From Owenia fusiformis (lineage: Eukaryota > Annelida > Polychaeta > Sabellida > Oweniidae): a stretch of DNA of 64,000 nt. The stretch covers positions 5,270,001-5,334,000 of the forward strand of contig CAIIXF020000001.1 of assembly GCA_903813345.2 (NCBI GenBank), written 5' to 3'. Numbering within the stretch: position 1 is the stretch's first letter; each line of letters begins with the position of its first letter. The translations under genes were made by a program, and so were the position numbers. This document shows, piece after piece, positions 9,677 through 63,943 of the stretch. The notes below the pieces were generated by a model, which ran no database searches, was not told the origin of the DNA, and worked only from the letters and a program-made list of their open reading frames with translations.

Positions 9677-12600
9677 CTGGAAATAGAAATAAAACAAAGT
9701 AATGCACAAAAATTCTGAAGTGACTTAAACATTCATTCAACTTTAAAAGTTCCATTTAAGAAGTAGAGACAAGTTTAATAGTGGGTCATAAGAGAATGGC
9801 AAGAATGTTTCTAAAGAAATTATGCATCAATATTTTTATTTTATTATTATCTTTCACAACGTGAAAACAAACTTACAAGTCATGTTGAAATATATTTGTT
9901 TATTTCAATACTGCAGGCTATGTTTTAAACATTAACATTTATTTTACAACACAGAATTGATTTATTATTCGTGTATTGTGGTGGCAAATCGCAAAAATAT
10001 GAATATGCGAATATAATCAAATGTACAAATCAGCGAAAATTGCTCCCGCAAATTAAAAGTGTTTTACAGTATTTCAAAATGGTGAACAGAAGCAGATGTA
10101 AAGTCAAAACTTTTCAAGTGATTTGTGTAGAGATTTTTGAGAAATTGCTTGACTGTATGGACAAATAGACATACAGATGGGGAAAATAACTAGACAACAG
10201 CAACGCCAAAGTGTAGCAAATCCCATTGAACAGCCATGGCTGGCATTTTTACAAACAAAGTATATAGCAAAAATGCAAGCCATTTTTCAAAATGGCCACC
10301 TTCTATCAAAAGTGTTATTAGACAGTGTGCCATGTGTATAGTATTCACATACCAAATATGAACAAAATCGCTCCACTATTTTCCGAATCATAAAATGGTG
10401 GCCATTTTTCAAAATGGCCACCTTCTACAAAAAGTGTCATTAGACAGTGTGCCATGCTTATAGTATTCACATACCAAATATGAACAAAATCGCTACACTA
10501 CTTTTCGAGTCCGGACAGACAGACGGATGGAGGCGTTCCCTATATCCCTCCAAACTTCCTTCTATGGGATAATAAAATGGTAGCACAACTTACATGAATG
10601 ATGACAGGGCAACATTATAACATCGACTCAGGGCAAGGTACTCTAAACCATGCAGATATTTCACTGCATGTTCCACAGTGGCCTGTGTTAGTACAGTTGC
10701 ATCACTAAGGTCTAGTTCCTTCAGATGAGGCAGTCTTCGACATAAGTGGAGTACATCTGCAAAAATATTATAGACTTTCATACCAATACACACCAGAATA
10801 GCCTGACAACGGTAAAGTCAAATACCGTTGTCACAAATGGCAGACATAACCGTCGCTTCAACTCTTTAATCACTTGGTCTTCGTTTCATTGGACTTTATT
10901 GTCGCTAATTCTGTGCATGTGTTAAGCTCGTGTGATGATGTATTATATGAAATCCCAATTTCTATCAAATGGGGTCGTGAATCACCACAATATAGCATAT
11001 TCGATATCGTCAATGACAATGGAATCTGAATTTGAAATAACTTACAACGACATATGGTAAGATGTGACAACGGACTATGGTGGATGTATTGCATTGGAAC
11101 ATAGGAAAATGACAATGGTAAATAGACACTTTACCGTTGGATTCCAAGGCTTACCTTCATCATTGAGGAGTTCCTTGCATCCACTGATATTGAGCTTGGT
11201 AACTCTGGGTGGCAAACATACAGCTACCAACTGGATGGTGTCTCTATCTAACTCAGTCCATGCAAGGTTCAATGACTCTAAGCTGAAATTATCAAACATA
11301 TCAATTCATTGTATATTCAAAGAAATACAAATGAGAAATACTGGGGTAACATTTTCACTTCAATTAAAGTAATATCAAGATACTTATACGTACGCTAAGC
11401 AGTTTGATATGATGGCATCAAGACCGGCTGATGTTATGCCGCTACACATGGCTAAGTTCAGGGTGTCCAACCCCATATTCTCACCAATTGACCTGAAACA
11501 TTTATCAAAAATCTAAATTGTCATTAGACGTGTAATATGGTTTCAAGAAATCACATGTGAAATATTAACAAGATCAGTCCACTACTTTTCCATCTAAAGC
11601 AAAAATGTAAAATAACACATATAAAAACTGCAGCATTTAATGAAATGGCTGCCTATTAGACAATTGTATATGTTATCCCTAAAATACTGTAAAATTAACA
11701 CTATAGCAGCCATATTGAAACCAGTGGTCATTTTGAAAATCGGCTTATGAGCAGAACTTATATCTGCATGGAGCAGAACTTGTAATCACATGGGGCATAC
11801 AACATGTATGAAATATTAATGATAATGGGCAAACCGTTTTTGAGTTATTGCCCAGATAGATGGATGTAAGTATCACAGTATGTATGGACGGACAGAGCTA
11901 TTCTCTATATCCCTGACCTGAACTTCATTGGATGGGATAACTAAGTAAAATTGTCCGCACCAAATATTTAATTCAGACTTTTATAAAACAAGTTTTTTAT
12001 TTAATGGACTCAATAGGTTAAGTGGGACGTGGGTTAAGTTTAAAGTGTGAAGGTTCAGATGATTTAATTTGACAGGAAAAATGTAAATCTATTTGAACTG
12101 AGAATGAACCTACTGCAAGATCTCTAGATTAAGTGGACAGTGTTCAAGACTCAGTTTCTTCAACTGTTGACAGCTTTCAAAGATTTCTTCTAATGTTGAT
12201 GATGTCACTACAGCCATAGAGAGGTCTAAGTATTGCACACGTGACATGCTGTAAGAGAACAAATTCACAATCCTACAATCATTATATTAATTTCAATGTT
12301 TTTTTAATCTAGTGTTCATCCAAAAACAAACAAACCAGCTCACAAAGTAAATACAGTAGATTCATGTTACAAATATTCCATAGTGACTAAGACTCTAATG
12401 AATTAGTTAGCAAAACTCTATTAATTTCAGACTAGTAAATTAATAACTTACCAAGATGAGTGTAAACTAGTAGACAAATCTGTAAACACTGGAGACAGCA
12501 CCTGAATATAACATGGAATTAATTATGCTAATAACATCTAGGATCAAACTAATAATAAACTGCAGCAGATAAATGGGAGATTGTACCTGCAATCTACATA

Positions 12601-20060: not shown

Positions 20061-20314
20061 TTTTGCACCCATCATGAAATTATGAGGCCACTAAGTTTGA
20101 AGGTGGTGACATAATGCCCTGTCTATGTAAACAACAACACCATGTAACCCCACCATTACCCACAGCACTATTAATTTATATCATGTTATATTCTAAAAGA
20201 TTTGATTTGATTCAATGGAATTTCTTTTTGTTCAGTGGGATTTGCTACTCTGGGGAATTGCTACATTCTCATTGAGTTAATAAGCTCATTTTATTTTCAT
20301 GAATTTTTAAGGAG

Positions 20315-20602
20315 ATGGGTGCTGGAACATCAACTGAAGCTGCTTTAACATTGGCCAATACCAACGATGTAACAGAGACAGGTAAAGCAAGTAACAACTG
20401 GGCAAAGATGGCTCCTGGACCAACTAAGCCTACTCATAGACAGCAGTCACAGTTTGATATAAAAGACATACCCAGTGAGTGTCCCATGCACCAGTCCCAG
20501 GAGGCAGTAGCAGTTCCAGCTCAGAGATTCCCAAGTGAATGTCCTATGCATCAGGCTGAACTTGGGGCTGGAGATGCTCCCAATCTTGATCCTACCAACA
20601 TG
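20315..20602 (+). CDS. HCCS: HCCS exon 1 (heme-motif N-terminus)
   Basis: ATG at 20315 (aaggagATGGGTGC), 96 codons ending LDPTNM|gtgagt. It contains both SECPMH motifs. The residues LDPTNM fit human LDPSNLM. The tttttaag just upstream could also be an acceptor for a noncoding 5' exon. Confidence 0.93.
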
Positions 20603-23600
20603 GTGAGTAATATATGAGTAAATTGGCTTGTGCAACAAATAATCCTAAAAAATAAGGGAGTCGGTTATTATTCCATTGAACGAAATTCGGAGGGATATAG
20701 GGAACGCCTCCGTCCATCTGTACGTCCGTCCATCCAGGCAGTAACTCAAATACTGTTAGCCAGATTTTGTTCATATTTTGTACATATATACCCTATGGGG
20801 GTAGAAGTTCTGCTCGAAAGCTGATTTTCAAAATGGTCACTCATTTTTATTTTAGTGCCGATTTTACGATTTTTGCTGTAAGTTGAAAAGTAGTAGAGCG
20901 ATTTTGTTTATATATTTGGTATGTGAATACTATAAACATGCCACACTGTCTAATGACACTTTTGGTAGAAGGCAGCCATTTTGAAAATGGCCGCCATTTT
21001 AACATATTTTACTGTAACTCGAAAAGTAGTGGAGCAATTATGTTCATATTTGGTATTTGAATACTATAAGCATGGCATATGTCTAATGACACTTTTGGTA
21101 GAAGGTGGCCATTTTTAAGATGAACATTTTCTTATAAGATGTAAAAAATATGAAATACTTAAAGAATGTTTGTACTAAGAATTAAAAGAAATTATTCCTA
21201 GTTTTGATTGTGATGACCCATATATTTTTAAAAGGTTAATGGCCTGAACACTTAACTGTTCAGTTACACATTGGAAAATTTATATATCATAGTTTCAGAA
21301 TTTAGATTAATATGTTTAGTAGTGTACATCACACTGTATAATAATTATTTTTATAGTTAGAATAGTTGTAGTAGTAGTTTGTCGTGATTTAGTGACCAAT
21401 GAATCATGTAACTGATATAAAATGTCAATAAAAGACATAATAATAATACTAAATACCTTACCTTCAGATGGAACCTCCCAACCAAAGGCCTGCCCCTGAT
21501 CAACCATTTCCTCTTTCCACTGACAGGATCAAATCGTCCATACCAAAGGCAGATAAAGAGGGAGAAAAATGGGTATATCCCTCTCCTCAGATGTTCTGGA
21601 ATGCAATGCTCAGGAAAGGTAAGACAATGTTGGTAGATTTATACAATTTGAAATGCAATAACTATCCCATTTAAGTTTTAACATATGAATTTTAAAATGT
21701 ATAAAGTCCGATGTGATGTATAAATCCCCAAAGAGGCAATGGAATCAAGGTCATACCATAAATTAAGTAATCGGACATATAGAAACAAAAGATACTGGTC
21801 AATTGTAAGTAGTCTTTTAAGAAAATCTAAAAACAGTAAAATACCACTTCTCTATGCTTTTAGATGTAATAGTTATCTTGCAAAATTCACTTTTGGACCA
21901 TTTTCTTTAAAACCTGTGTCGATGGCCGCCATTGTCTCGCGAAATTCACTTTTGGCCCATTTCCTGATTTTACATATAATTTCAGGTGTCCTGCATTGTA
22001 AAAAGCCATGTCACTGTACACACTGCCAACATGAATGGTATTGGAAAACCAGGTATTAATTATTGGCAGTGTGTACACAACATAGACATTATTCATTAGA
22101 TATAGCATCCACATGAAAATAAAAAACAATGAAAAATAGATTTAGGCTATTAGGCTTATTTCCTGGTTTTTAATATCCCAATGAATGAAGTCCATCGGAA
22201 GTTCAGTTTGTCCATCTATAAGTCAGTCCGTCGAATACTTGTGGATAGATTTTCTCCAAAAGGGGTCAAACCAGACCAAGATTTAAACCCTAATTCATGT
22301 TTATCTTGACCAAATAAATAAGCTTGGTTTAAAATATTAGATTCTGTTAGTTTCAGAAGTCTTAACAAGTACTTTATGATAGAAAATTCAATTGAATAGA
22401 TTTGAAAAAGGACAAATGCACTTCTAGATTATAGATGCAGATTCAAATGCAAATACTGTAGTCATCTTAGCTTTTTGTGTACTATACAGTATATGTACTG
22501 AACCCTTTCCACCTCTCCTGTCTCAGAAATTTCCCTCTGTCTGTCTACTTGAAGGGTGGCGCTGGAAGGATGATGACTTGAATCCAAATGATATGGCCCA
22601 CATCATAAATATTCACAATGCAAACAATGAACAGGCCTGGCAGGAAGTACTCAAGTGGGAAGCTTTACATGCAAAGTATGTATATGATGATTAATAAATG
22701 AATAAAGGACCAGGTTTAGTATGGCAAGAGATTTTAGATGCTCATATCTTTCACCATGAGCATTTTCTCAATTCAAATATGACATTTCCCATTAACACAA
22801 TATGTTATCTTTCAAGTAAATTCTCAAACAATTCGAAAAATTATGAATAGGGACCCCGTATCAACATTTATTTTAAAATATGGAACCTATTTACTCGAAA
22901 GAGGATCTTATTTTTCTGATTTTTATTGCACAAAAAGATTATTGAACAAGAGGTCTAGAACTCCTACAAAAGTAGAATGGATTGAAAGTCAAGTTTAAGA
23001 AATACCAATTTTCGATGACCAAAATTATGCTGAAAAAAAAGGATAGCATACAAAGGATGGAGTTTTTCCTATGGGAAAATAACATGGGATATGTGGTTTA
23101 ATTTTATCTCTTTTCAATCCCAATCCCCTTTTCAGAAGTTGTTAACATAGTGTAGAATAAACTTTTGATTTATTTAAATTGAGAAAAACAAGATCATCTT
23201 TTAATAAGATAAGCCTAACATTTTTAAAAAAGCGACAACTTGGGTTCATAATCCATACTTTTTCAGAATATTGGTTGATATTTTTATGATCATGGGGACC
23301 TCACTTAAAAAAACATATTGTCTAAAAACACTGTATTTATGGCCAGAAATACTCATGATGAATGATATGACTGTCCAAAATCACTTGCCATACTAAATCT
23401 GGGCTTTTGAATTTGTATATGATAATATTCAAAATGGTGAGTAATTATCCCAATGAACAAAGTTCGGTAGGGATATATTGAAGCTGTCCGTCCGTCAGTC
23501 AGTTCGTCCGTAGGTCAGTCCATCTGCTTAAATTGGCCAAACACGGGACACATTGGTATGATATGGAACATTGGTGAGGTATACCACATGGCTAAGAATA

Positions 23601-26490
23601 AATAAATGCCAAATAAGAACAAAGAATTAAAAGAATAAAGATATTCTCAAGCTAACAATACAAGCAGCAACCTAGACATCTGTCTGTCTGCACAATAACT
23701 CATATATTAGTGGATAGTTTTGCTTCAAAATTGGTAGAAAGATGTATATTGGTGAATAGTTGTATGCAAAATTTTTTTTTCAAGATGGCTACTGCTTTAG
23801 AAATGGCGGGAATATTTGGCGAAAATCTTTAGTTTTTCATTTTGAACCAAAGATCTCTTCAAAGTATGGCTATATTATACTCAAATTGAAGGAAATATGG
23901 GTTGGATCACAATTATCGTATTGTTTTTCTGATTTGTGCCTCAGAAAATTCAAAATGGCTGCTTAACACAAATCCGCTGTTACTTAGAGATTTTTTTGAA
24001 GTATGTTGACATACTTTATTAGATATAAAATATATTGTTTTTATTATTTGTGGCTTTGAAAAAACGGTGTAAATTCTGATATATCTCTTATGTACTGTAC
24101 TCTTATGTAGTATGTATATATCTACCGATTATATTTCAAGGGAAGAGTAGATGTAAATATTACATTGTGACAAATACAGATTCATTTATGTTAAAGTGTT
24201 CATTGGGATATGCTACTCCGTGGAGTTGATATTCATGTTATATTTTATCACAGGGCCGTAGAGAGAGGGTGTTCGGAGGGTTCGTGCGAACCCCCCAAAT
24301 TTTGAGTTAATTTTTTGCAGTGTATCAGTAATTTATCGTTTTTTGATTACCTTAGATATTCGAGGTACACTATATATATAGATGGAAATGAATGAGATGT
24401 ATACTTTATCCTGAGTAAAATGACTGGTGAGAATACAGAAAAATGATCTATTTTGAGATGGTGATAATAGGTTTGCACTTTTAGGCTGTTCTTATAACAC
24501 ACAGTTAACCCCTTTAAAGGAATAAGTGATTTCTTTTAGACAAAGTGGAAAACAATATTTTTCATGTTATTTTCCCATAGGGAAAACTCATGCGATCCAT
24601 TGCTTTCAGCTAATATCTTTAGAACCCCCGAAGGAATCACTTATTCAAAACACAACACATTGATACAAGAAAAATTAATAAAAAAGCAGGAGTAGAATGG
24701 GTTGAAAATCAGGAAAACATTTCAGAAAAAAACATGTGGGTGGGTTGTTTGAATCTTCCCTATCTCCAAGTCGAAATTATTTTATCATCTCTATGAGTGC
24801 TTTTCCTAGGGATAATGCATTTGCCTTACATATGCACCTGTTAAATCCTCAGAAAATAGCCAAAGTCCAACATTTGACTGTCCAAAATCTCTTTTGGCAA
24901 AGTTTAAGCAAATTTGGCAAAATTTAATCAAATAAGGCAGAGATTAAGCAAATTTGAAAAGGTTTTCACCAAATTCACCATTATTTTGCCAAAAAATTTC
25001 GAACCCCCTCCTGTCAAATCCTAGCTACGCCACTGTATCATAATACGTTATGCTATTACAGGGAATGTAGCAACCCAAGACTGAGAAAGTTTGGAGGCAA
25101 AGCTAAAGAATTCTCACCACGAGCAAGAATTAGAAGTTGGATGGGGTACGTAGACTTATTCTATGTCAAACACTGTACATGTATATTGTTAAAATTCTGA
25201 CCCACTTGAAGTGTTATTTGGCCTCAATCGCAATGTTTGGTAACTTTTTTATGTCCCCACCACATAGTGTGGGGCCATATTGTCAGCCTAGGCGTGTCTG
25301 TGTGCATGTATGTCCTACATCTGTATGCAAATTTTCAGGGACCTACTTCCTGTCGACCATTTTGAAGTCAAATGCTGAAATCCTTGTCTGCAGACTTTAA
25401 GAAAATCGGCTTCTCAGTTACTTTTAAAACTATAACATCTTCTTTAACCTTTAGCATGCTGCCGGCGAGTGGAGTCGCCTGTGCTTTACTATCTCAAGTG
25501 ACTGCCGGAGACTCCGGTCGACACACTGTTTAAACTTTAAAAAACTTTACTTTTTCGTGCATTCTTATTATCCAATAAGATTGCTTGTTTTATTCAGTGC
25601 CATACTTGACTTCTGGGTGACCTAGAAATGGCAATATTTTGAAAAGAAATTGTCTATTTAACAATTTAAATGGCATTTTAGCCGTTTTAAGTAGAGAAAT
25701 CAAACAAAATGGCATCTAAATATGATCATAATAAAAATGTGGAGGATATGGACTGCTATTTTGAGCTCTTGAGGCTTTTGGAAGCTGATAATGGACATCG
25801 AAAATAGAAACTAGAATATTTTCTGAATTGATTTAGTCACTCCAAATTCAGTTTTGGATTCTGACTCGATGTTAAGTCTTCCCAGTGGCGTAGTGGTGGT
25901 TTCCGGAGGAGTATTCATAGTAAAGTATGCACAGTTGGGTTAATTCATTAAAAAAATAATTTTTTGATGACTTGTTTAAGAGAAACGTGTGTTCAAAAAG
26001 TTCACCATATCGATACCCATCCTTTCAAAATGGCAACCATGTTTCATAAAACGTAATCTTTGATAATTTAAATACCAGTCAATGGATTTGGCTCAAATTT
26101 TATATGGCTGCTATTTATCAAAACATGTTTTATTCTGTGGGATTTGCTACTCCGTGGAGTTGTTGTTTTTCTAGTTAACATTAATATACTAGTAGCACAT
26201 AAGAGAACATTATTCTGTATTTTTTCAGTTATGAGCTTCCATTTGACAGACATGACTGGATTGTTGACCGTTGTGGCAAAGATGTGCGATACATTATTGA
26301 CTATTATGATGGTGGGGCAGTAGACACTGACACCAATAGGTTTACGTTACTTGATGTCCGCCCTGCATTAGATTCACCAGGTGCCCTCTGGGATAGAATG
26401 AAAGTAGCATGGATGCGCTGGAAATATAGCAGTGTCGCAGCTGATGACATCGACCCTCACAGTGCCAAACAAAGTGGTGACAAATCTTAA
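20315..26490 (+). CDS. HCCS: HCCS: holocytochrome c-type synthase (cytochrome c heme lyase), whole gene
   Basis: Five exons join to 906 nt (301 residues; human HCCS has 268): 20315-20602, 21468-21618, 22555-22675, 25062-25145, 26229-26490. All introns are GT-AG with matching phases. The family enzyme covalently attaches heme to the CXXCH motif of apocytochrome c in the mitochondrial intermembrane space. Visible landmarks: two Cys-Pro heme motifs SECPMH (Cys56, Cys76) in a divergent N-terminus; [52 protein letters not shown], whose first His (residue 167) corresponds to the heme-ligand His154 of human [39 protein letters not shown]; and [20 protein letters not shown]. The C-terminus is about 20 residues longer than in human. 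The gene is divergent to SKP2. Confidence 0.96.
20640..21115 (+). repeat. Dispersed 'atcccaacgaac' repeat in HCCS intron 1
   Basis: It reads attccattgaacgaaattcggagggatatag, cgtccatctgtacgtccgtcc, then several AAAATGGCCGCCATTTT-type blocks and repeated 'acactttttggtagaagg' phrases. Internal sub-repeats of roughly 120 bp are visible (cgaaaagtagtggagc...gacacttttggtagaagg, twice). The remaining intron 1 has no other feature. Confidence 0.75.
21468..21618 (+). CDS. HCCS: HCCS exon 2
   Basis: Acceptor accttcag|ATGGAACC, reading [20 protein letters not shown] through [18 protein letters not shown], donor AAAG|gtaaga in phase 1. Confidence 0.97.
22555..22675 (+). CDS. HCCS: HCCS exon 3 (heme-ligand histidine)
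   Basis: Acceptor tctacttgaag|GGTGGCG, reading [20 protein letters not shown] then [19 protein letters not shown], donor CAAA|gtatgt in phase 2. Confidence 0.97.
22706..23404. mobile_element. TIR element in HCCS intron 3
   Basis: It starts accaggtttagtatggcaag and ends with the inverse cttgccatactaaatctgg (about 23384-23402). The left 110 bp recurs at about 55510-55618 (catatctttcaccatgagca). It is non-coding and about 700 bp long. Confidence 0.65.
23445..24236 (+). repeat. Dispersed 'atcccaacgaac' repeat in HCCS intron 3
   Basis: It begins attatcccaatgaacaaagt...gtccgtccgtcagtcagttcg and ends gttcattgggatatgctactccgtggagttg, the two characteristic ends of the family, with AAAATGGC blocks between them. 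Confidence 0.75.
24253..25038. mobile_element. Probable transposon with 'ggc(c)gtag' ends adjacent to HCCS exon 4
   Basis: The left end is cagggccgtagagagagg...tcgtgcgaaccccccaaattttg. The right end is ttcgaaccccctcctgtc...tagctacgccactgt, an imperfect inverse. 'tatca' flanks both sides. The insertion stops about 24 bp before the exon 4 acceptor, so the branch-point region of intron 3 may lie in or beside it. Confidence 0.55.
25062..25145 (+). CDS. HCCS: HCCS exon 4
   Basis: Acceptor tgctattacag|GGAATG, reading [20 protein letters not shown] then ARIRSWM, donor ATGGG|gtacgt in phase 2. A transposon-like repeat ends only about 25 bp upstream of this exon. Confidence 0.97.
25249..25345 (+). 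repeat. 'atgtccccaccaca...gtgtgggg' repeat
   Basis: A hairpin-like tatgtccccaccacatagtgtggggccatat is followed by gtgtctgtgtgcatgtatgtc. This layout is common in dispersed repeats of marine invertebrates. It lies in HCCS intron 4. Other intron 4 repeat pieces are a solo TIR (about 25975-26032) and a 'gggatttgctactccgtggag' end (26139-26175). Confidence 0.5.
26229..26490 (+). CDS. HCCS: HCCS exon 5 (C-terminus, stop)
   Basis: Acceptor tattttttcag|TTATGAG, reading [51 protein letters not shown], ending SAKQSGDKS and TAA (26488-26490). Confidence 0.97.
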
Positions 26491-27396: not shown

Positions 27397-27465
27397 TGTT
27401 ACACTTATTTATTGATAATTGTTATGAAAAACATGAGCATGTTTATTCTATGATGGATTCGAGTT

Positions 27466-27883
27466 AGGGGAGGCATCAAAAGCTCGATGTTGGATAGAAA
27501 ACTAAATAAATCTAGTTAGGGGGGAGGGGGTTCAAACCCATTTCAGTTTGCTATCCGACAAATTTCAACATTTCAAATTTTTGGCAATTTCAACTCAGAA
27601 TGCCTTGAAACGGTTTAAAAATAAAGATTTTACCTGATGCTTTCTTCGTCAAGATCATTCCATTGGATTATATTCTATCAATAGTTGTAAAAAGCGGCAA
27701 ATTACAATAGAAATTAACAAAAACTAGATCGTGTTTAGCAATAATTTTTCAAATTCTCAAACCGGAAGTAAGCGATCAACTTTCACGGTATTTAGTTTTG
27801 GGGGGGGGAGGGGGGGGGGGTCTGAGTCAAAACTAGATTTATTTAGTTTCCGATCCGACATCGAACTTTTGATGCCTCCCCTT
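27466..27883. mobile_element. MITE with about 55-bp inverted termini
   Basis: aggggaggcatcaaaagctcgatgttgg...ctaaataaatctagtt at the left is mirrored by aactagatttatttag...ccgacatcgaacttttgatgcctcccct at the right. Poly-G tracts sit at the inner edge of each arm. The boundary of the 2.3-kb tandem unit (27694) falls inside this element, so later unit copies carry only its right half. Confidence 0.8.
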
Positions 27884-29998
27884 ATACAATCATGATATTA
27901 GTGCAAGCTAGTTGATAAAATAATGAAATAGAGTGTTTTAATAAAATCAGTATTACCCTTTGGCTTTTCATACTCTCACATCAAAACACATCTAGGTGCT
28001 TACTTATAGGTTTTGATTACACCAGGTTTGTTTCATTGAAATATGTAATGTAAAAAAGAAAGAATCCATACCCATAAGGGTATATTTGGCGAAAATCTTA
28101 AGTAATATTTTTGTTTGAGATTTGGGTAGTATATTCACAACGTCGATCTATTTCACATATGTTCCCAGTTTTTCACTTGACCCTCAGGGGCTGTGTATGG
28201 GGGGGAGGGAAAACAGGAATTTTTGCTAATTTTGAGATCTTTCTGAAGTATAGCTTTATTATACTCAAATGGAAGGCAATTTTGAGTAGATTGCAAAAAT
28301 TGTGTCATTTTTTAATTCAAGTCTCGTAAAATTCGAAATGGCTGCTTAAAATCACGCCCGATGATTGGAAGAAATAAATGGAGGAGGGAGTAGTTGATTA
28401 GTAGTAGCTATGGCAAAGAAAATCAGCTACTCCCCCTCCATTCATTTCTTCCGATCATGTAAATGATATTTCACAATAATTTCCTGATCTCTTCAAGGTA
28501 TGACTATTATCAAGTAACAGGGGTCTACACGACCTGTAATAAATACTTGTAAGTGAAGTTATTATCACAAAACTATTGTCATCGTTAGTTTTGTAAAACA
28601 TGTTACCATATGTTATATAAAAAATAATCAAAACTTATAGAAATTGAATGGAGGGGAAGTGAATGGATCGGGGAGTAATGTGTCTTTAAGACATATGATA
28701 AGAGATGTAACTTGACTTTATTTCCGAAAACTCCATATGTCTCTATTTTTCACTTTTCAGAGTTGTAACATCAAGTTGTTACTGAGTTGCTGAGCTCATT
28801 TTTCAAAAACACAAATTCGCTGAAATTTCTTCCACCATTACTCCCCCACCTCTGTTCACTCCCCCACCTCTGTTCAATTTTAGTTATTTTCAATTATTTT
28901 TTACCTCACGTTTGGAAACTTATTTTAAATAACTGGCAATGACATTAATTTTGTGGTAAAAACGTTGCTTATACAGGGTGGGCAAAAAATGCCACTTTTT
29001 TCAAAATGCTATAACTTTTTTAATTTTTGATACAAAATCATAATTTGCATACCAATTGAAACTTGAGGATGCTATCTAGCCATGGATTATGAATTATGTA
29101 TAAAAGAAAAATGTCACCAGTGTCTCACTTAAAAATGTGGTGTGCCCTGGGAAATAAACATAATTTGCAACATATTCCTGAATTGATACGGCCTGATGAA
29201 CACCTAGCTAAGAGTCCTGATGAAATCCCCAGTGAGTATAGGGTATGGGAAGATCTCCAGGAGATGGTATGAAGGCACCCAATCTAAAAATTGCCTAACT
29301 AAAGCTGGCAATAAAGACAGGTTGAAAGAAACTTTCCAACATTTCACCGATACTGCTATATCAGCAAGGCAACTAAGACTAAAAGCTATCATCAAAGAGG
29401 GTGGCAGACCAATTGAACTCCTCTTTTAGATCAAATATAATTCAAGTTGAAGGGCATTGTTACATTATATTATTACTCAGAACCCCTGGTACTATATAAC
29501 TGCAAAATTTGGGGAATATAGGTTGGAAAATAAAAAAGTTAGTGTCTTGAAAAAAAGTGGCGTTTTTTTGGCCCACCCTGTATATATATTTATTACAGGT
29601 CGTGTAGACAATTGTTGCTTGATTTGCAAGCAAAAACATTGACATTTGCACATTGGTCATGCTGCGCATTTTTTAATAGAATTATTTTAGAAGTCCCATC
29701 AGTTCAAAAAAATTGTAGAAGACCTAACACATTTCCCTGTGTACTGCATCTATTCATTTAGCAATTCAATTGTAAATTTTTTTCTTGAAAAAATAAATCT
29801 AGGAGACATTTTAAGTTCCAATGGGGACATATGGAGCTACAGATACGTATAACGTGCTATATGTGGTTTGGTAACTGAAATCTTAGTTCATAATTGATCC
29901 GAAGATTTGCACATTTTTCAATTGAGTTGTATGGGGCCATTTAATAGTTCAGTTGTCCACAGTGAGTATTATCTATCATTCTTTTATATTAGATATTA
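27694..29998. repeat. Tandem unit copy 1 (2305 bp)
   Basis: First of three head-to-tail, near-identical units starting gcggcaaattacaata. It contains the right half of the MITE at 27466-27883, a hairpin (ggaagaaataaatggagga...ttcatttcttcc, about 28370-28455), a second inverted pair (gaatggaggggaagtgaatgg / gttcactcccccacctctgttc) and the mariner-like MITE 28972-29582. No gene is recognised. Copy 1 alone has 'acaatagaaatt' at the left edge. Confidence 0.95.
28972..29582. mobile_element. Mariner-like MITE in tandem copy 1 (611 bp)
   Basis: The termini are tacagggtgggcaaaaaa...gccactttttt and the inverse aaaaaagtggcgtttttttggcccaccctgta, flanked by TA on both sides, as expected for Tc1/mariner insertion. 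Inside are two short plus-strand ORFs: about 44 residues beginning MWCALGNKHNLQHIPELIRP, stopping at ATGGTATGA near 29270, and a second at 29220-29429 (69 residues, other frame). They could be a remnant or captured coding fragment, but I cannot name a family. Confidence 0.85.
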
Positions 29999-32300
29999 GC
30001 GGCAAATTACAATAGGAATTAACAAAAACTAGATCGTGTTTAGCAATAATTTTTCAAATTCTCAAACCGGAAGTAAGCGATCAACTTTCACGGTATTTAG
30101 TTTTGGGGGGGAGGGGGGGGGTCTGAGTCAAAACTAGATTTATTTAGTTTCCGATCCGACATCGAACTTTTGATGCCTCCCCTTATACAATCATGATATT
30201 AGTGCAAGCTAGTTGATAAAATAATGAAATAGAGTGTTTTAATAAAATCAGTATTACCCTTTGGCTTTTCATACTCTCACATCAAAACACATCTAGGTGC
30301 TTACTTATAGGTTTTGATTACACCAGGTTTGTTTCATTGAAATATGTAATGTAAAAAAGAAAGAATCCATACCCATAAGGGTATATTTGGCGAAAATCTT
30401 AAGTAATATTTTTGTTTGAGATTTGGGTAGTATATTCACAACGTCGATCTATTTCACATATGTTCCCAGTTTTTCACTTGACCCTCAGGGGCTGTGTATG
30501 GGGGGGAGGGAAAACATGAATTTTTGCTAATTTTGAGATCTTTCTGAAGTATAGCTTTATTATACTCAAATGGAAGGCAATTTTGAGTAGATTGCAAAAA
30601 TTGTGTCATTTTTTAATTCAAGTCTCGTAAAATTCGAAATGGCTGCTTAAAATCACGCCCGATGATTGGAAGAAATAAATGGAGGAGGGAGTAGTTGATT
30701 AGTAGTAGCTATGGCAAAGAAAATCAGCTACTCCCCCTCCATTCATTTCTTCCGATCATGTAAATGATATTTCACAATAATTTCCTAATCTCTTCAAGGT
30801 ATGACTATTATCAAGTAACAGGGGTCTACACAACCTGTAATAAATACTTGTAAGTGAAGTTATTATCACAAAACTATTGTCATCGTTAGTTTTGTAAAAC
30901 ATGTTACCATATGTTATATAAAAAATAATCAAAAATTATAGAAATTGAATGGAGGGGAAGTGAATGGATCGGGGAGTAATGTGTCTTTAAGACATATGAT
31001 AAGAGATGTAACCTGACTTTATTTCCGAAAACTCCATATGTCTCTATTTTTCACTTTTCAGAGTTGTAACATCAAGTTGTTACTGAGTTGCTGAGCTCAT
31101 TTTTCAAAAACACAAATTCGCTGAAATTTCTTCCACCATTACTCCCCCACCTCTGTTCACTCCCCCACCTCTGTTCAATTTTAGTTATTTTCAATTATTT
31201 TTTACCTCACGTTTGGAAACTTATTTTAAATAACTGGCAATGACATTAATTTTGTGGTAAAAACGTTGCTTATACAGGGTGGGCAAAAAATGCCACTTTT
31301 TTCAAAATGCTATAACTTTTTTAATTTTTGATACAAAATCTTAATTTGCATACCAATTGAAACTTGAGGATGCTATCTAGCCATGGATTATGAATTATGT
31401 ATAAAAGAAAAATGTCACCAGTGTCTCACTTAAAAATGTGGTGTGCCCTGGGAAATAAACATAATTTGCAACATATTCCTGAATTGATACGGCCTGATGA
31501 ACACCTAGCTAAGAGTCCTGATGAAATCCCCAGTGAGTATAGGGTATGGGAAGATCTCCAGGAGATGGTATGAAGGCACCCAATCTAAAAATTGCCTAAC
31601 TAAAGCTGGCAATAAAGACAGGTTGAAAGAAACTTTCCAACATTTCACCGATACTGCTATATCAGCAAGGCAACTAAGACTAAAAGCTATCATCAAAGAG
31701 GGTGGCAGACCAATTGAACTCCTCGTTTAGATCAAATATAATTCAAGTTGAAGGGCATTGTTACATTATATTATTACTCAGAACCCCTGGTACTATATAA
31801 CTGCAAAATTTGGGGAATATAGGTTGGAAAATAAAAAAGTTAGTGTCTTGAAAAAAAAGTGGCGTTTTTTTGGCCCACCCTGTATATATATTTATTACAG
31901 GTCGTGTAGACAATTGTTGCTTGATTTGCAAGCAAAAACATTGACATTTGCACATTGGTCATGCTGCGCATTTTTTAATAGAATTATTTTAGAAGTCCCA
32001 TCAGTTCAAAAAAATTGTAGAAGACCTAACACATTTCCCTGTGTACTGCATCTATTCATTTAGCAATTCAATTGTAAATTTTTTTCTTGAAAAAATAAAT
32101 CTAGGAGACATTTTAAGTTCCAATGGGGACATATGGAGCTACAGATACGTATAACGTGCTATATGTGGTTTGGTAACTGAAATCTTAGTTCATAATTGAT
32201 CCGAAGATTTGCACATTTTTCAATTGAGTTGTATGGGGCCATTTAATAGTTCAGTTGTCCACAGTGAGTATTATCTATCATTCTTTTATATTAGATATTA
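29999..32300. repeat. Tandem unit copy 2 (2302 bp)
   Basis: Second unit, preceded by the junction tatattagatatta|gcggc. Private changes relative to both other copies include aacatgaatttt (not aacagg), tcctaatctc (not tcctgatctc), cacaacctg (not cacgacctg), ctcctcgttt (not ctcctctttt) and a shorter G tract. These show it is a real separate copy. Confidence 0.95.
31273..31884. mobile_element. Mariner-like MITE in tandem copy 2 (612 bp)
   Basis: Same element as at 28972-29582, with one extra A in the run before gtggcg. It was carried along by the tandem duplication and did not arrive by a separate insertion. Confidence 0.85.
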
Positions 32301-34605
32301 GCGGCAAATTACAATAGGAATTAACAAAAACTAGATCGTGTTTAGCAATAATTTTTCAAATTCTCAAACCGGAAGTAAGCGATCAACTTTCACGGTATTT
32401 AGTTTTTGGGGGGGAGGGGGGGGGGGTCTGAGTCAAAACTAGATTTATTTAGTTTCCGATCCGACATCGAACTTTTGATGCCTCCCCTTATACAATCATG
32501 ATATTAGTGCAAGCTAGTTGATAAAATAATGAAATAGAGTGTTTTAATAAAATCAGTATTACCGTTTGGCTTTTCATACTCTCACATCAAAACACATCTA
32601 GGTGCTTACTTATAGGTTTTGATTACACCAGGTTTGTTTCATTGAAATATGTAATGTAAAAAAGAAAGAATCCATACCCATAAGGGTATATTTGGCGAAA
32701 ATCTTAAGTAATATTTTTGTTTGAGATTTGGGTAGTATATTCACAACGTCGATCTATTTCACATATGTTCCCAGTTTTTCACTTGACCCTCAGGGGCTGT
32801 GTATGGGGGGGGAGGGAAAACAGGAATTTTTGCTAATTTTGAGATCTTTCTGAAGTATAGCTTTATTATACTCAAATGGAAGGCAATTTTGAGTAGATTG
32901 CAAAAATTGTGTCATTTTTTAATTCAAGTCTCGTAAAATTCGAAATGGCTGCTTAAAATCACGCCCGATGATTGGAAGAAATAAATGGAGGAGGGAGTAG
33001 CTGATTAGTAGTAGCTATGGCAAAGAAAATCAGCTACTCCCCCTCCATTCATTTCTTCCGATCATGTAAATGATATTTCACAATAATTTCCTGATCTCTT
33101 CAAGGTATGACTATTATCAAGTAACAGGGGTCTACACGACCTGTAATAAATACTTGTAAGTGAAGTTATTATCACAAAACTATTGTCATCGTTAGTTTTG
33201 TAAAACATGTTACCATATGTTATATAAAAAATAATCAAAAATTATAGAAATTGAATGGAGGGGAAGTGAATGGATAGGGGAGTAATGTGTCTTTAAGACA
33301 TATGATAAGAGATGTAACCTGACTTTATTTCCGAAAACTCCATATGTCTCTATTTTTCACTTTTCAGAGTTGTAACATCAAGTTGTTACTGAGTTGCTGA
33401 GCTCATTTTTCAAAAACACAAATTCGCTGAAATTTCTTCCACCATTACTCCCCCACCTCTGTTCACTCCCCCACCTCTGTTCAATTTTAGTTATTTTCAA
33501 TTATTTTTTACCTCACGTTTGGAAACTTATTTTAAATAACTGGCAATGACATTAATTTTGTGGTAAAAACGTTGCTTATACAGGGTGGGCAAAAAATGCC
33601 ACTTTTTTCAAAATGCTATAACTTTTTTAATTTTTGATACAAAATCATAATTTGCATACCAATTGAAACTTGAGGATGCTATCTAGCCATGGATTATGAA
33701 TTATGTATAAAAGAAAAATGTCACCAGTGTCTCACTTAAAAATGTGGTGTGCCCTGGGAAATAAACATAATTTGCAACATATTCCTGAATTGATACGGCC
33801 TGATGAACACCTAGCTAAGAGTCCTGATGAAATCCCCAGTGAGTATAGGGTATGGGAAGATCTCCAGGAGATGGTATGAAGGCACCCAATCTAAAAATTG
33901 CCTAACTAAAGCTGGCAATAAAGACAGGTTGAAAGAAACTTTCCAACATTTCACCGATACTGCTATATCAGCAAGGCAACTAAGACTAAAAGCTATCATC
34001 AAAGAGGGTGGCAGACCAATTGAACTCCTCTTTTAGATCAAATATAATTCAAGTTGAAGGGCATTGTTACATTATATTATTACTCAGAACCCCTGGTACT
34101 ATATAACTGCAAAATTTGGGGAATATAGGTTGGAAAATAAAAAAGTTAGTGTCTTGAAAAAAAGTGGCGTTTTTTTGGCCCACCCTGTATATATATTTAT
34201 TACAGGTCGTGTAGACAATTGTTGCTTGATTTGCAAGCAAAAACATTGACATTTGCACATTGGTCATGCTGCGCATTTTTTAATAGAATTATTTTAGAAG
34301 TCCCATCAGTTCAAAAAAATTGTAGAAGACCTAACACATTTCCCTGTGTACTGCATCTATTCATTTAGCAATTCAATTGTAAATTTTTTTCTTGAAAAAA
34401 TAAATCTAGGAGACATTTTAAGTTCCAATGGGGACATATGGAGCTACAGATACGTATAACGTGCTATATGTGGTTTGGTAACTGAAATCTTAGTTCATAA
34501 TTGATCCGAAGATTTGCACATTTTTCAATTGAGTTGTATGGGGCCATTTAATAGTTCAGTTGTCCACAGTGAGTATTATCTATCATTCTTTTATATTAGA
34601 TATTA
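32301..34605. repeat. Tandem unit copy 3 (2305 bp)
   Basis: Third unit, ending tatattagatatta|gatagagggtg, the unduplicated right flank. Private changes include gtagctgattag (others gtagttgattag), ggatagggg (others ggatcgggg) and accgtttgg (others accctttgg). Copies 2 and 3 share aaaaattatag and taacctgac against aaaacttatag and taacttgac in copy 1. Confidence 0.95.
33579..34189. mobile_element. Mariner-like MITE in tandem copy 3 (611 bp)
   Basis: Same element as in copies 1 and 2, in the same position of the unit with the same TA flanks. Confidence 0.85.
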
Positions 34606-34670
34606 GATAGAGGGTGCTGACTGTGGAGTTGTCCCATTCTCAAAATTCATTTCGTTCCTTGTGTAAAGGT

Positions 34671-35058
34671 CAGCGTAAAATCGTATCCTCAAGAATTAGC
34701 CCCGGGGACCTTTCAACACTATTATAACACTCATCCTCAAGAATTATCCCCCTGAACTTTTAACACTGTCACTATGTTGGCTATCAATACTGTTTAAATA
34801 CATTAAACATTCCCAAGTCTTGTATTTATCTATGATTAAATTAGTAGAGTGATCTTATAGAATTTATGAGCCCAAATCCAATCAAAAGCAAATAACAAGC
34901 TTTAAAATTGCAAAACACAAATGTGATTTATTAATTTAATGTATAAGTGGTTTATTGAGTATATATAAACATATAATATGATAAATTTCTAGCATCTAGC
35001 ATGTACTTTAGGTAATTATTACTTTCCCGGGATTTGGGCTTGAGGATACGATTTTACT
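34671..35058. mobile_element. Possible short insertion with 18-bp inverted ends upstream of SNRPA1
   Basis: taaaatcgtatcctcaag at about 34675-34692 is matched exactly by cttgaggatacgatttta at about 35039-35056. The segment between is AT-rich and non-coding. It ends about 180 bp before the SNRPA1 start codon, so it borders or forms the promoter. Confidence 0.55.
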
Positions 35059-35238: not shown

Positions 35239-35920
35239 ATGGTGAAGTTGACACCGGAATTGATCCAACAGGCGCAACAATATACGAATCCAGTGCGGGA
35301 CAGAGAATTGACTCTCCGAGGATATAAAATTCCAGTCCTAGAAAATCTGGGAGCGACTCTCGATCAATTCGACACAATCGATTTTTCTGACAATGACATT
35401 CGTAAGCTTGATAGCTTTCCATTATTAAAGAGATTAAAAACCCTTCTTTTTAACAATAACAGAGTTTCAAGAATCACAGAAAATCTTGAAGAAAGTTTAC
35501 CTAATTTGGAAACATTGATTCTCACCAATAACAACATGCGCGAGTTGGGCGATATTGATGTGTTATCAACTGTAAAAACATTGTCCACTCTCAGCTTACT
35601 CGGAAACCCTATCACCACTAAAGAACACTACAGACTTTATATTGTGCATACACTGCCAAATCTGCGTCTGTTAGACTTTAGGAAAATCAAACAAAAGGAA
35701 CGTGATGCTGCTCAACGTTTGTTCAAGGGGAAAAGAGGAGCCAACCTTATCCGTCAGATTGGTCAGAAGTCTAATACCTTCGTACCAGGTGGAAATATTC
35801 CAGAAAAGCGAGTTGCTCCTCCTAAAGATGTTGAGGCAATCAAGAGAGCCATAGTGAATGCAAAGAGTTTAGAGGAGGTTGAACGTCTAACCCAAATGCT
35901 CAGGACTGGTCAAGTACCAG
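35239..35920 (+). CDS. SNRPA1: SNRPA1 exon 1 (almost the whole protein)
   Basis: Start gcatttacaaaATGGTGAAG region, 227 codons plus one base, donor TACCAG|gtatta. It carries all LRRs and the helical C-terminal segment in one exon, unusual for a gene that is multi-exonic in vertebrates. Confidence 0.97.
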
Positions 35921-38599
35921 GTATTACTTGAAACTTACTCACTTCGAGAGCCATGTTAGATTTTGAAACTTATGCACATGCTATCTATTGCAAGACTAAC
36001 GCCTGGTGTAACCGTCGCCATGTTATTCGGTGTTTTTTAAGTAGCGCAAGGATCCTGCCATGACCGTGGCAGTGTTATTTTGTAAGCCTGGTATAACCGT
36101 GACAACGCTGTATTATATTGCAAGGCCTGTCATGACCGTGAGTGTTTTCGTGGAAGCCTGGCGCGGCCGTAGCATTTACGTTTAATTTAAGAATTTTTTA
36201 TTGTTGTATGTTAAGGATGTTCCCTGGACGAAGTTGAAAACGATGAACACCAACCCCTAATTTTTCTTTTCAAAATGTGAAGTACATAGCATAACTAAGT
36301 GTTTCTGTGAGTTTAAGAAAAAGTTAAATATTCAAAAGTGTGTTTTGGGGTGAAAACCTGATTTTTAACATGGGTTTCAATGAGAAAGTGCCACGCCCAC
36401 TTTTGTCAAATATCGACACTTTAGAGGCCTCTTGCTCAGAAAAAAGCACACTAACATATGGTTTTTAAAGTTTTAATATTCTTTGTTGCCCGTGAGAATC
36501 CCAGAAAACCATTTTTGAGAAAAAGTTAAATACTATTGAATATTTTCCTATCTGACCAGGGAACATCCTTAAGTGATTTGTTTACTATCCACTTTTAAAT
36601 AAATTGTTTATTAGCGTGACTCAAATAACTTGTCTTATTCTGTGTAAATGATTAATTATTTTAGAATATGCGGAAATAATGTGAATATAATGTCTAGTAG
36701 TAATTTTGATATTAACATAATTAAGGTAGTTAAACACCTACATCACCACTCTCATACCTGAACTTGCAATACTACATTACACTGCCACGGCGGTCATACC
36801 AAGCCTTGCAATACTATATTACATTGTCACGGTCATGCCAGGCCTTGCAGTACTATATTACATTGTCACGGTCATGGCAGACCTTGCAATACTATATTAC
36901 CTTGTCACGGTCATGCCAGGCTTTGCAATACACATTGTCACGGTTATAGCAGTAGTCCTAATCATAAATTTCTACATCACCACTTTCATACCTGAACTTG
37001 CAATATTACATTACACTGCCACGGCGGTCATACCAAGCCTTGCAATACTATATTACATTGTCACGGTCATGCCAGGCCTTGCAGTACTATATGACATTGT
37101 CACGGTCATGCCCGGCTTTGCTATAAACATTGTCACAGTTATAGCAGTCCTAATCATAAATTATTGCAAGGCCTGTCATGACCGTGGTAATGTTAAAGCC
37201 TAATATGACCGTGACAATGCTTATAAGGCCTGTCATGACCGTGGTAATGTTAAAGCCCCGTATGACCGTGACAATAGTTGCAAGGCCTCTAATGATCGTG
37301 GTTGTATTTAAAGTAGCATGAGAACACTGTAATGACAATTTTTCTTCGTGTTTAACTACCTTAAATATGTAAATAAAGACTACTAATAATGTGTATTAAT
37401 TTCACAACGAAAACCTAATTTTTACTCATAAATAATTTGCAAACAAACTATATCTCTACTCTCATTCAAAGAGCTTCGATTCGAAAGCATATACTTTCTA
37501 TAATGATCAATTGATAAGATTTATTCATAAAAAATACCAACAGCAACGGGTCATTAATGTCATATAAAGGTTGCGGTCGCGCCAGGCTTACACGATTACA
37601 CTACCACGGTCATGGCAGGCATTTTAATATAATACAGCATTGTCGCGGTTATACCAGGCTTTCACGATAACATTACCACGGTCATGGCAGGATCCTTGCG
37701 CTACTTAAAAAACACCAAATAACATGGTGACGGTTACGCCAAGCGTTAGTCTTGCAACAGATAGGGTCTCAACTTATGGCTCTCAAACGGGGGAATGGAC
37801 AGCTGAATAATAGTGACCTTTTAAACACAAATTAAGTCGATCAGCTGCCTACTTTTGTTCTCTAACTATGTTATCCGTGCAAGTATTGGAGCGCTGAAGT
37901 ACTTCCTTTTCGATCAAGACTTGTAATTTTTAGTCGAATGAATGTTTTTATTGGCAAATTCCAATATGGCGTTTTATGCTCAGACATTTCCGCGAATCTC
38001 TGGAGGTTGTCCGAACCTAATCATTCTCAAAATTCATTTCGCTCGTTGCGTATCTCGCCCTTAGCAAACCGCCATATTGGAAATGGGTCGAAAAAACATT
38101 TACTCAATGAACAATTTACAAGTCTTGATCTAAAAAGAAGTATTTCAGTGCTCCAATACTTGCACGGATTGATGATACTGATGTAAGACACAGTTAGAGA
38201 CCAAAAGTTTTATTCATATTTTAAAGGTCACTATTACTCCGCTGCCCAAGTGCGCCGTGGGAAAGCTATTGTATCAAAATCCACTATAGCTTTCGCAGGA
38301 AGTAAACTTGAAACCGTTTTCTGTATCTAGTTTTAGACTGTTACTTTATTTTTTCATTCACTTCACTGGTTTGGTTATATTATCCAGTTTGGAACATAAA
38401 TAATGACTCATAGATTTACTGAAGTGAGGATTTCCCATGTTAAAATAAGAGAATCAGGGAATGTACTAAAAACCCTACGACCTACGACTTGCTTGGTGTC
38501 AACATTATCCAAAACATTTTTATTGTTGATGTATGACATTTATTTTACTCAGGTGGTGCTGGCGAAAAGGAAGAAATGATGGAAGTCAATGGTCACTAG
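35239..38599 (+). CDS. SNRPA1: SNRPA1: U2 small nuclear ribonucleoprotein A' (whole gene)
   Basis: Two exons (35239-35920 and 38553-38599) give 242 residues (human 255). U2A' is a nuclear leucine-rich-repeat protein that pairs with U2B'' on stem-loop IV of U2 snRNA in the spliceosome. Visible: the diagnostic N-terminus MVKLTPELIQQAQQYTNPVR, RELTLRGYKIPVLENLGATL, LRRs (IDFSDNDIRKLDSFPLLKRL, LFNNNRVSRI, LILTNNNMREL, LSLLGNP), the cap YIVHTLPNLRLLDFRKIKQK with ERDAAQRLFKGKRG, then the helical ANLIRQIG...VPGG and VERLTQMLRTGQVPG. Exon 2 supplies an acidic tail (GAGEKEEMMEVNGH) like that of human. I chose the ATG at 35239 by homology. An upstream in-frame ATG (35065) would add 58 unrelated residues. 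If the intron were retained, the protein would end after two more residues. Confidence 0.97.
35985..37770. repeat. Large inverted repeat in the SNRPA1 intron
   Basis: The left arm (about 35988-36172: ttgcaagactaacgcctggtg..., ttttttaagtagcgcaaggatcctgccatgaccgtgg...) is mirrored by the right arm (about 37568-37766), nearly 190 bp each. Both contain several spaced accgtg/cacggt units. The 1.4 kb between the arms holds the tandem array at 36738-37300 and ordinary sequence. Confidence 0.85.
36738..37300. repeat. 39-bp tandem array with about 233-bp higher-order duplication
   Basis: The unit ccttgcaatactatattaca + ttgtcacggtcatgccagg (39 bp) repeats from about 36803. A block starting ctacatcaccactctcatacctg at 36738 recurs at about 36971, so the array itself is duplicated. 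From about 37170 the units run in the opposite orientation (gcctgtcatgaccgtggtaatg). Because 39 is a multiple of 3, all frames give periodic peptides. These ORFs are artefacts of the repeat. Confidence 0.85.
37785..38250. repeat. Second foldback element in the SNRPA1 intron
   Basis: Left arm about 37790-37972 (aatagtgacctttt, ccgtgcaagtattggagcgctgaagtact, gatcaagacttgtaa, ccaatatggcg) and the reverse-complement right arm about 38070-38245 surround a loop of about 100 bp. The 82-residue ORF at 37938-38186 lies in it and is not a gene. Confidence 0.8.
38553..38599 (+). CDS. SNRPA1: SNRPA1 exon 2 (acidic C-terminal tail)
   Basis: Acceptor tttattttactcag|GTGGTGC. With the split Gly it reads GGAGEKEEMMEVNGH then TAG. 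Phase 1 fits exon 1 exactly, and the tail ending VNGH resembles the human C-terminus (acidic, then TNGS). This supports the splice model over the read-through stop at 35929. Confidence 0.85.
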
Positions 38600-42758: not shown

Positions 42759-44011
42759 TCAATCCTCAATGTATTCTCCTCCAAGTTCAATTACTTTCTT
42801 CTGTCGGCGCACCCATGCAGAGAACACATGCCCAAATCCATCAGCAGCCATGGTGTTCAGCTGTTTTTGTACAGCCATTTGCAGCTCAGCTAATGTCTGA
42901 AAGGATTGTCCCTTTAATGCCATCTTAAGGGTGGGAAAAAGATAGAAATCACAAGGAGCAGTATCAGGGCTATATGGAGCATGTGGAAGTTGAGGCATGT
43001 CCATGAATGCTGCAAGAGTATCCTGAACTAGCTTGGACCTGTGTGCTGGGGCATTGTCCATGTGTAACAACCGATTGTCTCTTGTGTCTTTCCTTTTCTT
43101 TTGAAGTGCCTGTCCAAGATTGCATTTTAGAACGTGAAAGTGAAATATCATTATTTATTTATTCATTCATTTATTTATCTATTTTCAAATTATTAATCTT
43201 GCTTAAAGCTATTATGACTTCATTTTCTCCTTTTAAATTGACAATGATTAAAACGGATGAAAATATCATGTTTACCTTGGTGAAGTATTTCCCTTTGATA
43301 GTCTGATGAGGAGGAACATAGTGGGTCAGGATCACGCCATCATAATCGAAGAAGGGAACAATCATCACTTTGTCAGAGGATCTGCTTTGCCTTTGTTGGG
43401 CGCCGCTCACCCTTTTTGATATACTGTGTAGATTGTAGTTTAGTTTCTGGATCTCTAAAGTATAGCCATGATTCGTCAGTAGTGATTATACGCTTTAGGA
43501 ATCCTTCTCCTTCAATGTTGTATTGCTTCAGAAAATCCTGCGCAACTTCGACACGTTGTTGCTTTTGTTCTTCAGAAAGAAGCTTAGTAATCCACTTGGC
43601 ACACACCCTTTTCATATTTAGGTCGCATTTTACAATCCTTTGTACTGTAGAGTAGGACACATCTGTAATGGAACTTATTTCTCTCAGTGTCAATCTCCTG
43701 TCTGCATTTAGGATGGACTCTACATGGTGAATAGTGTTATCAGTGCGGCCAGTCTTGGGCCTTCCAGATTGCTTTAAATCTAAGGCTCTCGTATCCCCTT
43801 CACTAAAGTGTTTGTACCATCGCTCAATGGCTTGCCTTGACAAGGCCTTGTCTCCATGTGTCTCTTTTATTTTCTTGACAACTGCCTGCCTTGTCTCTCC
43901 AGTAGCTACCAAATATTCAATAACAATCCTTTGCTTAACTTTTATTTGTTGTAAAGTAGACATTTCTTGGATGTGTGTGAGTCTAAGAGTCTGATCTACT
44001 TTCTGACTCAC
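42759..44011 (-). pseudogene. Mariner transposase, disrupted
   Basis: Three minus-strand pieces in different frames cover a whole transposase. Piece 1 (44011-43373): two helix-turn-helix regions (SRQAIERWYKHFSEGDTRAL; LTLREISSITDVSYSTVQRI) and the first catalytic Asp (IITTDESWLYF). Piece 2 (from about 43392): SSDKVMIVPFFDYDGVI...GKYFTKV. Piece 3 (43151-42759): the second Asp (LLHMDNAPAHRS) and the mariner signature YSPDTAPCDFYLFP with the third Asp. By my count 35 residues separate the last two Asp, one more than the usual mariner DD34D. A single-base frameshift near 43385-43395 and a 118-bp insertion (43143-43260, flanked by 9-bp direct repeats) break the frame, so it cannot be active as it stands. 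Confidence 0.9.
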
Positions 44012-44364
44012 TGTGACTCATCATTCTTAGAAATATCATTGTGATGTCATAGCACAATTGGTTGCTGAATTTAGAACTCAACAGCAAACACATGGGCATG
44101 TGAGTCTTGCTTGACAATTGCATTACCATGCTTGTTAGACATATCATGTGTGGTAATTGAGTCATTAAAACGAAATCAAGCAAAAATGACAAAAACATTC
44201 AATTATCATTAAAAAACCAATTCCACCCATGCTTACCCTTGTTACCATGGTTACGCATAGCTGAAACAATTTCAAATGCATTTAAATGAGAATTCGACAC
44301 AAAGTAGAGAATTGATTGATCTATTCACTGTAAAAAAATTAGACTGATTGGGTGAAATTTAGTA

Positions 44365-62855: not shown

Positions 62856-63943
62856 AGATAACAGCAACGTCAAAGCGTAGCAAAACCCATCGAACAGCCA
62901 TGGCTGGCATTTTTCAGAAATCATTGTACTACTTTTTCAGTTATAGCAAAGATCATAAAAAAAGTTTTTATTAAATATGGCCACCATTTTCAAAATGGTT
63001 GCTCACTAGCCAAATTGTCATAAGAAAGTGTAATATGCTTCTAAAAAGTAGACAAATATATAATTTCAAAAAAACCGCACACACATACATGTAAATGGTG
63101 GTCATTTTGCAAAATAGCTGCCTACTAGCCAAAGTGTCGTTAGACAATGTCCCATGCTTATGACCTACCAAATATGAACAAAATGGCTCTATTACTTTTT
63201 GAGTTTTAGTAAAAAAACGTAAAATAACATATGTGAAAATGGCGAGCATTTTCAAAATGGCTGCCTTTCGACAGTATGCCGTGCTTATGATATTCACATA
63301 TCAAACATGAACAAAATCACTATTATTTTTTGAGTTTGACACATGTAAAAGTGGTGGCCATTTTCAAAATGGCCGCGTACTCGCCAGAGTGTGATAAAAC
63401 GGTGTGTGATGCTTATGAGCATTCAAATATCAAATATGAACATGCAAAATTGCTCCACTACTTTTCAAGTTACAGCAAAAAACGTAAAATAATGTGTAAA
63501 GGCCATCATTTTTCAAGATGATTGCCATCTACATTTGTAGCTTTACTAAAGGACGTATATAACTATCAAGAGCTTAGAAAACAATAAAAATGAGTTTTTT
63601 GAAAAATAAATCATCAATTTGATTCATTTTCATTAATTAAATCCAATAAATACGCTTTCTTTCTTTCTTTATACAATCTTTAATATCATATATAACTTTT
63701 TTACATTTGGCAGTAAAATGGCCACCATTTTTGAATTAGTTGCCATTTTGAAAATCCCCTTTCGAGAAGAACTTTTACCCCTATAGGACATACATAGCAC
63801 ATTATGAACAAAATCGAGCTGACAGTATCTTAGTTATCGCCCGGATAGACGGGTGGATGGACAGACGGATTGACTTACATATGGATGGCCGGACGGATGG
63901 AAGCATTCCCTATATCCCTCCAAACTTTGTTCGTTGGGATAAT
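62856..63943 (-). repeat. Large 'atcccaacgaac' family repeat (about 1.09 kb)
   Basis: The left end is aactagataacagcaacgtc...caaaacccatcgaacagcc. The right end is ggacggatggaagcattccc tatatccctccaaactttgttcgttgggataat. Inside are at least four diverged sub-repeats of about 130-150 bp, each with 'caaatatgaacaaaatcgctccac', 'cttttcgagtt' and palindromic AAAATGGCCGCC/GGTGGCCATTTT blocks. The minus ORF at 62971-63297 arises from them. Confidence 0.8.

Follow-up and report, generated by a model that had tools for sequence, protein, structure and literature searches.

Why should a 2.3-kb stretch of DNA, in which no gene has been found, stand three times in a row in the genome of Owenia fusiformis, the copies almost indistinguishable from one another? 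We addressed this question for a single locus lying within a window of 64,000 nucleotides, which is the whole stretch of DNA analysed here and the frame for all coordinates below. The original prediction had placed three head-to-tail copies of 2305, 2302 and 2305 bp at this locus.

Three copies and one common junction

Self-BLAST of the window returned two overlapping direct matches, 27693-32301 against 29998-34606 (99.4% identity) and 27693-29999 against 32300-34606 (99.6%), the repeat next in length within the window measuring 585 bp (79%). Registered on a shared AG dinucleotide, the matches resolve into copy 1 at 27693-29997 (2305 bp), copy 2 at 29998-32299 (2302 bp) and copy 3 at 32300-34604 (2305 bp), all on the plus strand, followed at 34605-34606 by an AG that is common to both ancestral breakpoints. 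Both the number and the lengths of the predicted copies are thus borne out by self-comparison. The array span, 27693-34604, is ambiguous by the 2-bp AG overlap, and the span first claimed, 27694-34605, falls inside that ambiguity. When the remainder of the window was searched for degenerate copies of the unit (E up to 0.01), no older extension of the array came to light, the only three matches being an arm of the inverted-repeat element at the left edge, 116 bp at 74% and 26 bp at 92%.

With gaps counted, pairwise identity is 99.44% for copies 1 and 2, 99.61% for copies 1 and 3, and 99.44% for copies 2 and 3, as near-identical as had been stated. Substitutions were counted with the poly-G tract (unit columns 108-119) excluded, as the alignment there is arbitrary; copies 1 and 3 differ by 7 mismatches in the pairwise alignment versus 6 in this count, the seventh presumably falling in the tract. 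Eleven substitutions were found outside the tract (5 transitions and 6 transversions, counted by eye), and every copy carries private ones, in line with the original prediction: 3 in copy 1, 5 in copy 2 and 3 in copy 3. Two more indels separate the copies outside the tract, one in a G run and one in an A run. The pairwise counts of 8, 6 and 8 substitutions per approximately 2302 bp correspond to 0.26-0.35% divergence, which fits a single clock together with the 3/5/3 distribution. The bases that copies 2 and 3 share to the exclusion of copy 1, which the original prediction also cited, are uninformative about history, since among three sequences every two-state site is necessarily private to one of them. 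The private differences argue against one sequence having been written three times, but not against two haplotypes having been mixed.

The substitutions are unevenly spread along the unit. Its initial 1021 bp contain nine of the 11 (simulation, p about 0.013, for a region picked after inspection of the data). Copies 1 and 3 carry none over the final 1284 bp (p about 0.053). Chance and gene conversion are the sole explanations that we can offer for this skew.

Both internal junctions read ATATT-AG-CGGC, while the outer edges of the array read AAAA-AG-CGGC on the left and ATATT-AG-ATAG on the right. Apart from the shared AG, the two ancestral breakpoints have 24.6% ungapped identity over 122 bp; immediately to their left it is 35-40% over 20-40 bp, compared with 27% expected from base composition, and immediately to their right it is 10-15%. 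Head-to-tail copies with one common junction, at breakpoints without long homology, are the marks of a non-homologous tandem duplication, and the lack of longer homology (24.6% over 122 bp) makes a homologous first step unlikely. The 2-bp overlap itself was correctly predicted, but it does not point to end-joining or slippage as had been proposed: 16-18% of random joins are expected to share 2 bp or more by chance alone, so the junction names no repair pathway. This range is analytic and was preferred over an empirical value of 0.204, which counted positions inside the array and was inflated. The narrower class of microhomology-mediated tandem duplication, defined by an overlap longer than chance, was considered and not assigned, as the AG is within chance.

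The left edge of the array falls inside a TTA-flanked inverted-repeat (MITE-like) element at 27467-27881 (415 bp). Its 52-nt arms, 27466-27517 and 27831-27882, are 92% complementary, and TTA stands on both sides, at 27464-27466 and 27882-27884. Terminal inverted repeats with a 3-bp TTA target duplication are those of a PIF/Harbinger-type MITE, the TTA duplication being the mark of this superfamily and hence of the type of the element. The array's left breakpoint is about 19 bp from the centre of the element at 27674 (relative position 0.54), and its predicted location within a MITE-like element is confirmed. The element runs unbroken from the flank into copy 1, whereas copies 2 and 3 have its right half only. 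Because copy 1 completes an element that begins in the left flank, the unit was already at the locus before amplification; on this sequence evidence, copy 1 stands in its ancestral context and the array arose in place. We agree with the original prediction that there is no sign of the unit having moved by transposition, having found nothing that points there. A Helitron was also considered and dropped: the unit ends, inspected by eye, are without Helitron termini, and the left-edge element shows duplication in place.

Contents of the unit and its neighbours

The unit is made of putative old transposon pieces, with inverted-repeat elements forming much of the 2.3 kb. A poly-G tract containing a G-quadruplex motif lies at 27800-27820 on the plus strand, where copy 1 has 9 G, an A and 11 G; the two runs are 7+9 in copy 2 and 7+11 in copy 3. 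G-quadruplex motifs occur in the window once per array copy and once more at about 13847. A strong hairpin at 28358-28455, with its copies at 30659-30756 and 32965-33062, has minimum free energies of -51.5, -51.5 and -53.9 kcal/mol in copies 1, 2 and 3, and z is -10.28 in each. The hairpin differs at a single site (unit column 703, in copy 3), where the plus strand keeps its pair, G-U against G-C. Two G/C-rich stem-loops had been predicted in the unit, and this hairpin is the first of them. The second, at 28635-28880 (z -5.69), is real but forms only the inner part of a palindromic, foldback-like element at 28509-29623, which measures 506 bp without its nested insertion.

The arms of the palindromic element pair 28509-28545 with 29587-29623 at 89% and 28550-28654 with 28867-28971 at 72%. 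Once the insertion is removed, alignment of the two outer arms, each of 170 bases, gives 72.2% over 176 columns; the score is 73.5, whereas 200 shuffles reached at most 25.0. The nested insertion itself, at 28972-29582 (611 bp), is flanked by TA and has CAGGGTGGGC termini; its terminal inverted repeats (20-nt and 18-nt arms, at 95% and 94%) are of the Tc1/mariner-like kind. A C-terminal reading of the insertion, in pieces, presumably resembles a mariner-like transposase by motif, and a Pfam search for transposase with two short pieces gave no match. Viral contigs scanned for exact patterns taken from the termini of two of the inverted-repeat elements contained no match. Elsewhere in the window, 23808-23966 is a diverged relative of two parts of the unit, 28235-28349 (74% over 116 bp) and 28078-28103 (92% over 26 bp), which suggests that the unit may hold another, unnamed repeat.

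The claim that the unit contains no gene agrees with the searches made, the Pfam part of which covered the two short pieces only. Across the window, no Rfam family was matched at gathering score, and with it no known RNA family by which a microRNA or structured RNA could be recognized; a tRNA scan of the window detected no tRNA. The only listed stop-to-stop ORF of at least 80 aa inside the array is at 31752-32063 (103 aa).

The array is flanked by exons of cytochrome c heme lyase and by the coding sequence of SNRPA1. Upstream on the plus strand, two ORFs within 22428-26490 contain parts of cytochrome c heme lyase (HCCS; PF01265), with Pfam E-values of 3.6e-9 in 22428-22694 and 1.1e-20 in 26203-26490; the last of these ORFs ends about 1.2 kb before the array. 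A Pfam search with a further ORF at 20303-20617 gave no match. Downstream, SNRPA1 (U2 snRNP A') is encoded on the plus strand at 35239-35931 (LRR_9, E 1.9e-82), and its product matches the U2A' chain 5xjc_o at 1.1e-92, query residues 1-228 aligning with residues 1-231 of 255. The SNRPA1 start codon is 632 bp past the AG at 34605-34606. The reading frame stays open over 230 codons, has no intron and ends in a TGA stop. The human SNRPA1 gene has several exons, and the ORF in this window may be a retrocopy, an intron-poor gene, or an ORF that overruns a splice donor.

Repeats are found on either side of SNRPA1. A further inverted-repeat element at 34675-35057 (32-nt arms, 81%) has the array on one side and SNRPA1 on the other. 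Just past the coding sequence, 36738-37302 contains minisatellite-like arrays with periods of 39 and 27/57, as well as a 139-bp direct repeat (97.8%, spacing 234 bp). Farther downstream, at 42759-44017, a mariner-type transposase lies in pieces on two different minus-strand ORFs, with HTH_48 at 2.4e-7 in 43373-44017 and DDE_3 at 1.7e-4, under its curated cut-off, in 42759-43154. One family of related elements is present at 10279-10506, 20871-21122 and 63093-63490, in both orientations, and two of its members contain tandemly duplicated internal segments, of 122 and 133 bp.

A proposed origin weighed against its rivals

We consider it likely that transposon-rich intergenic DNA was recently triplicated in tandem at this locus. 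The process would have begun with a non-homologous duplication and continued with a second step by homologous exchange or template switching, and the array is most likely neutral. A break or stalled fork would have occurred close to the centre of the inverted-repeat element at 27467-27881, and this site would then have been connected, through a 2-bp overlap, with a position lying 2.3 kb downstream on either the sister or the homologous chromosome, producing a duplication. End-joining, template switching and break-induced replication would all be compatible with this first duplication, given that a 2-bp overlap is within chance. From two 2.3-kb copies, misaligned homologous exchange or further template switching could have made three with identical junctions; the agreement of the second junction with the first suggests either a later homologous exchange between copies or repeated switching in one event. 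A single crossover between two diverged copies would be expected to make the left part of copy 2 resemble copy 3 and its right part copy 1, and this signature is not seen at the six sites that separate copies 1 and 3, where copy 2 agrees in order with 3, 1, 1, 3, 1, 3. With six sites and later mutations, its absence is weak evidence and decides little. The array would now be neutral copy-number variation and possibly the seed of a satellite array.

The array looks genuine and young, and the chief doubt concerns the copy number given by the assembly. One or two real copies could have been expanded, or two haplotypes laid in tandem. Divergence of 0.26-0.35% is comparable to allelic difference, being in the ordinary allelic range of many invertebrates, and the length of the poly-G tract differs between copies, such tracts being places where sequencing errs. 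However, the novel adjacency ATATT-AG-CGGC is present twice with the identical 2-bp overlap, and a true head-to-tail junction would most likely have to exist in the reads in order to be assembled. Moreover, the eleven differences are substitutions rather than indels, and haplotypes placed in tandem would normally duplicate flanking sequence as well, yet self-comparison shows no duplicated flank. Taken together, we regard an assembly artefact as unlikely. Identical junctions between head-to-tail copies would also be produced by a rolling-circle or extrachromosomal concatemer that was made elsewhere and then integrated. Here, though, copy 1 completes a TTA-flanked element begun in the flank, and the unit was accordingly at the locus before amplification; a circle could have been excised and reinserted at the same spot, at the cost of more steps. 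An origin by integration thus seems exceedingly improbable.

The original prediction also held that recent amplification of a gene-free unit asks for an explanation, be it a regulatory element, a transcribed hairpin or neutral copy variation. Such amplification does not of its own accord require an adaptive one. If extra copies were favoured because a hairpin or palindromic element is transcribed (as a source of small RNA) or acts on the SNRPA1 promoter, the strength of the hairpin in all copies, its one pair-keeping difference, and the 632 bp from the end of the array to the SNRPA1 start would all fit. Set against this, the window has no Rfam match at gathering score, a single pair-keeping difference amounts to no statistic, and when the minus strand is read, copy 1 has no pair at that site. 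Long inverted repeats are, moreover, what MITEs yield without any function. None of these tests favours either a regulatory role or transcription of the hairpin, and we judge functional amplification to be very improbable. Just as doubtful, in our estimation, is a bolder possibility, in which palindromes and poly-G would make the locus fragile and self-amplifying, a satellite at its birth, with a copy number that varies among individuals and tunes SNRPA1. The duplication is most likely an ordinary accident of DNA repair or replication without consequence.

Relation to known tandem duplications

On its own the array has little weight, as another young tandem duplication of transposon-rich DNA. 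Its value lies in being a clean early-stage case, with flank, junction and donor element still legible and a breakpoint close to the middle of an inverted-repeat element. Should individuals turn out to differ in copy number, the locus could serve as a marker of how arrays of this kind begin.

About 80% of new Drosophila duplications are tandem according to PMC3207856. Counterparts of similar dimension are the natural CUP1 arrays of yeast, for which PMC4232551 gives units of about 1.2-2 kb, junction overlaps of at most 3 bp and 0.5% divergence, and which it explains through non-homologous joining. The present array is alike in unit size, in overlap and in low divergence. Unlike the yeast arrays, which in that account carry a selected gene, the 2.3-kb unit is one in which we found none.

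The two-stage model outlined in a review (PMC12628747), in which satellite DNA derives from MITEs and other transposons through a few repeats that subsequently expand, describes in its first stage tandem copies of transposon-rich DNA like those seen here. There are only three 2.3-kb copies in this case, and satellite expansion is absent from the window.

The position of the breakpoint finds its parallel in PMC8277862, which reports, for transposon-associated duplications, 190 cases (67.6%) with microhomology at one breakpoint or at both, ranging from 1 to 36 bp with a median of 2 bp, and breakpoints in animals that are skewed toward the interior of the terminal-inverted-repeat element. The same study links duplications associated with DNA transposons to gap filling and to fork stalling with template switching. 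Those duplications and the present one share a breakpoint interior to a terminal-inverted-repeat element, here at relative position 0.54, and an overlap of 2 bp; they differ in that the duplications described there are pieces captured inside a transposon, whereas here half a transposon is contained within the tandem unit. Seen beside these systems, the array is a new example rather than a new kind, and it fits among known tandem duplications.
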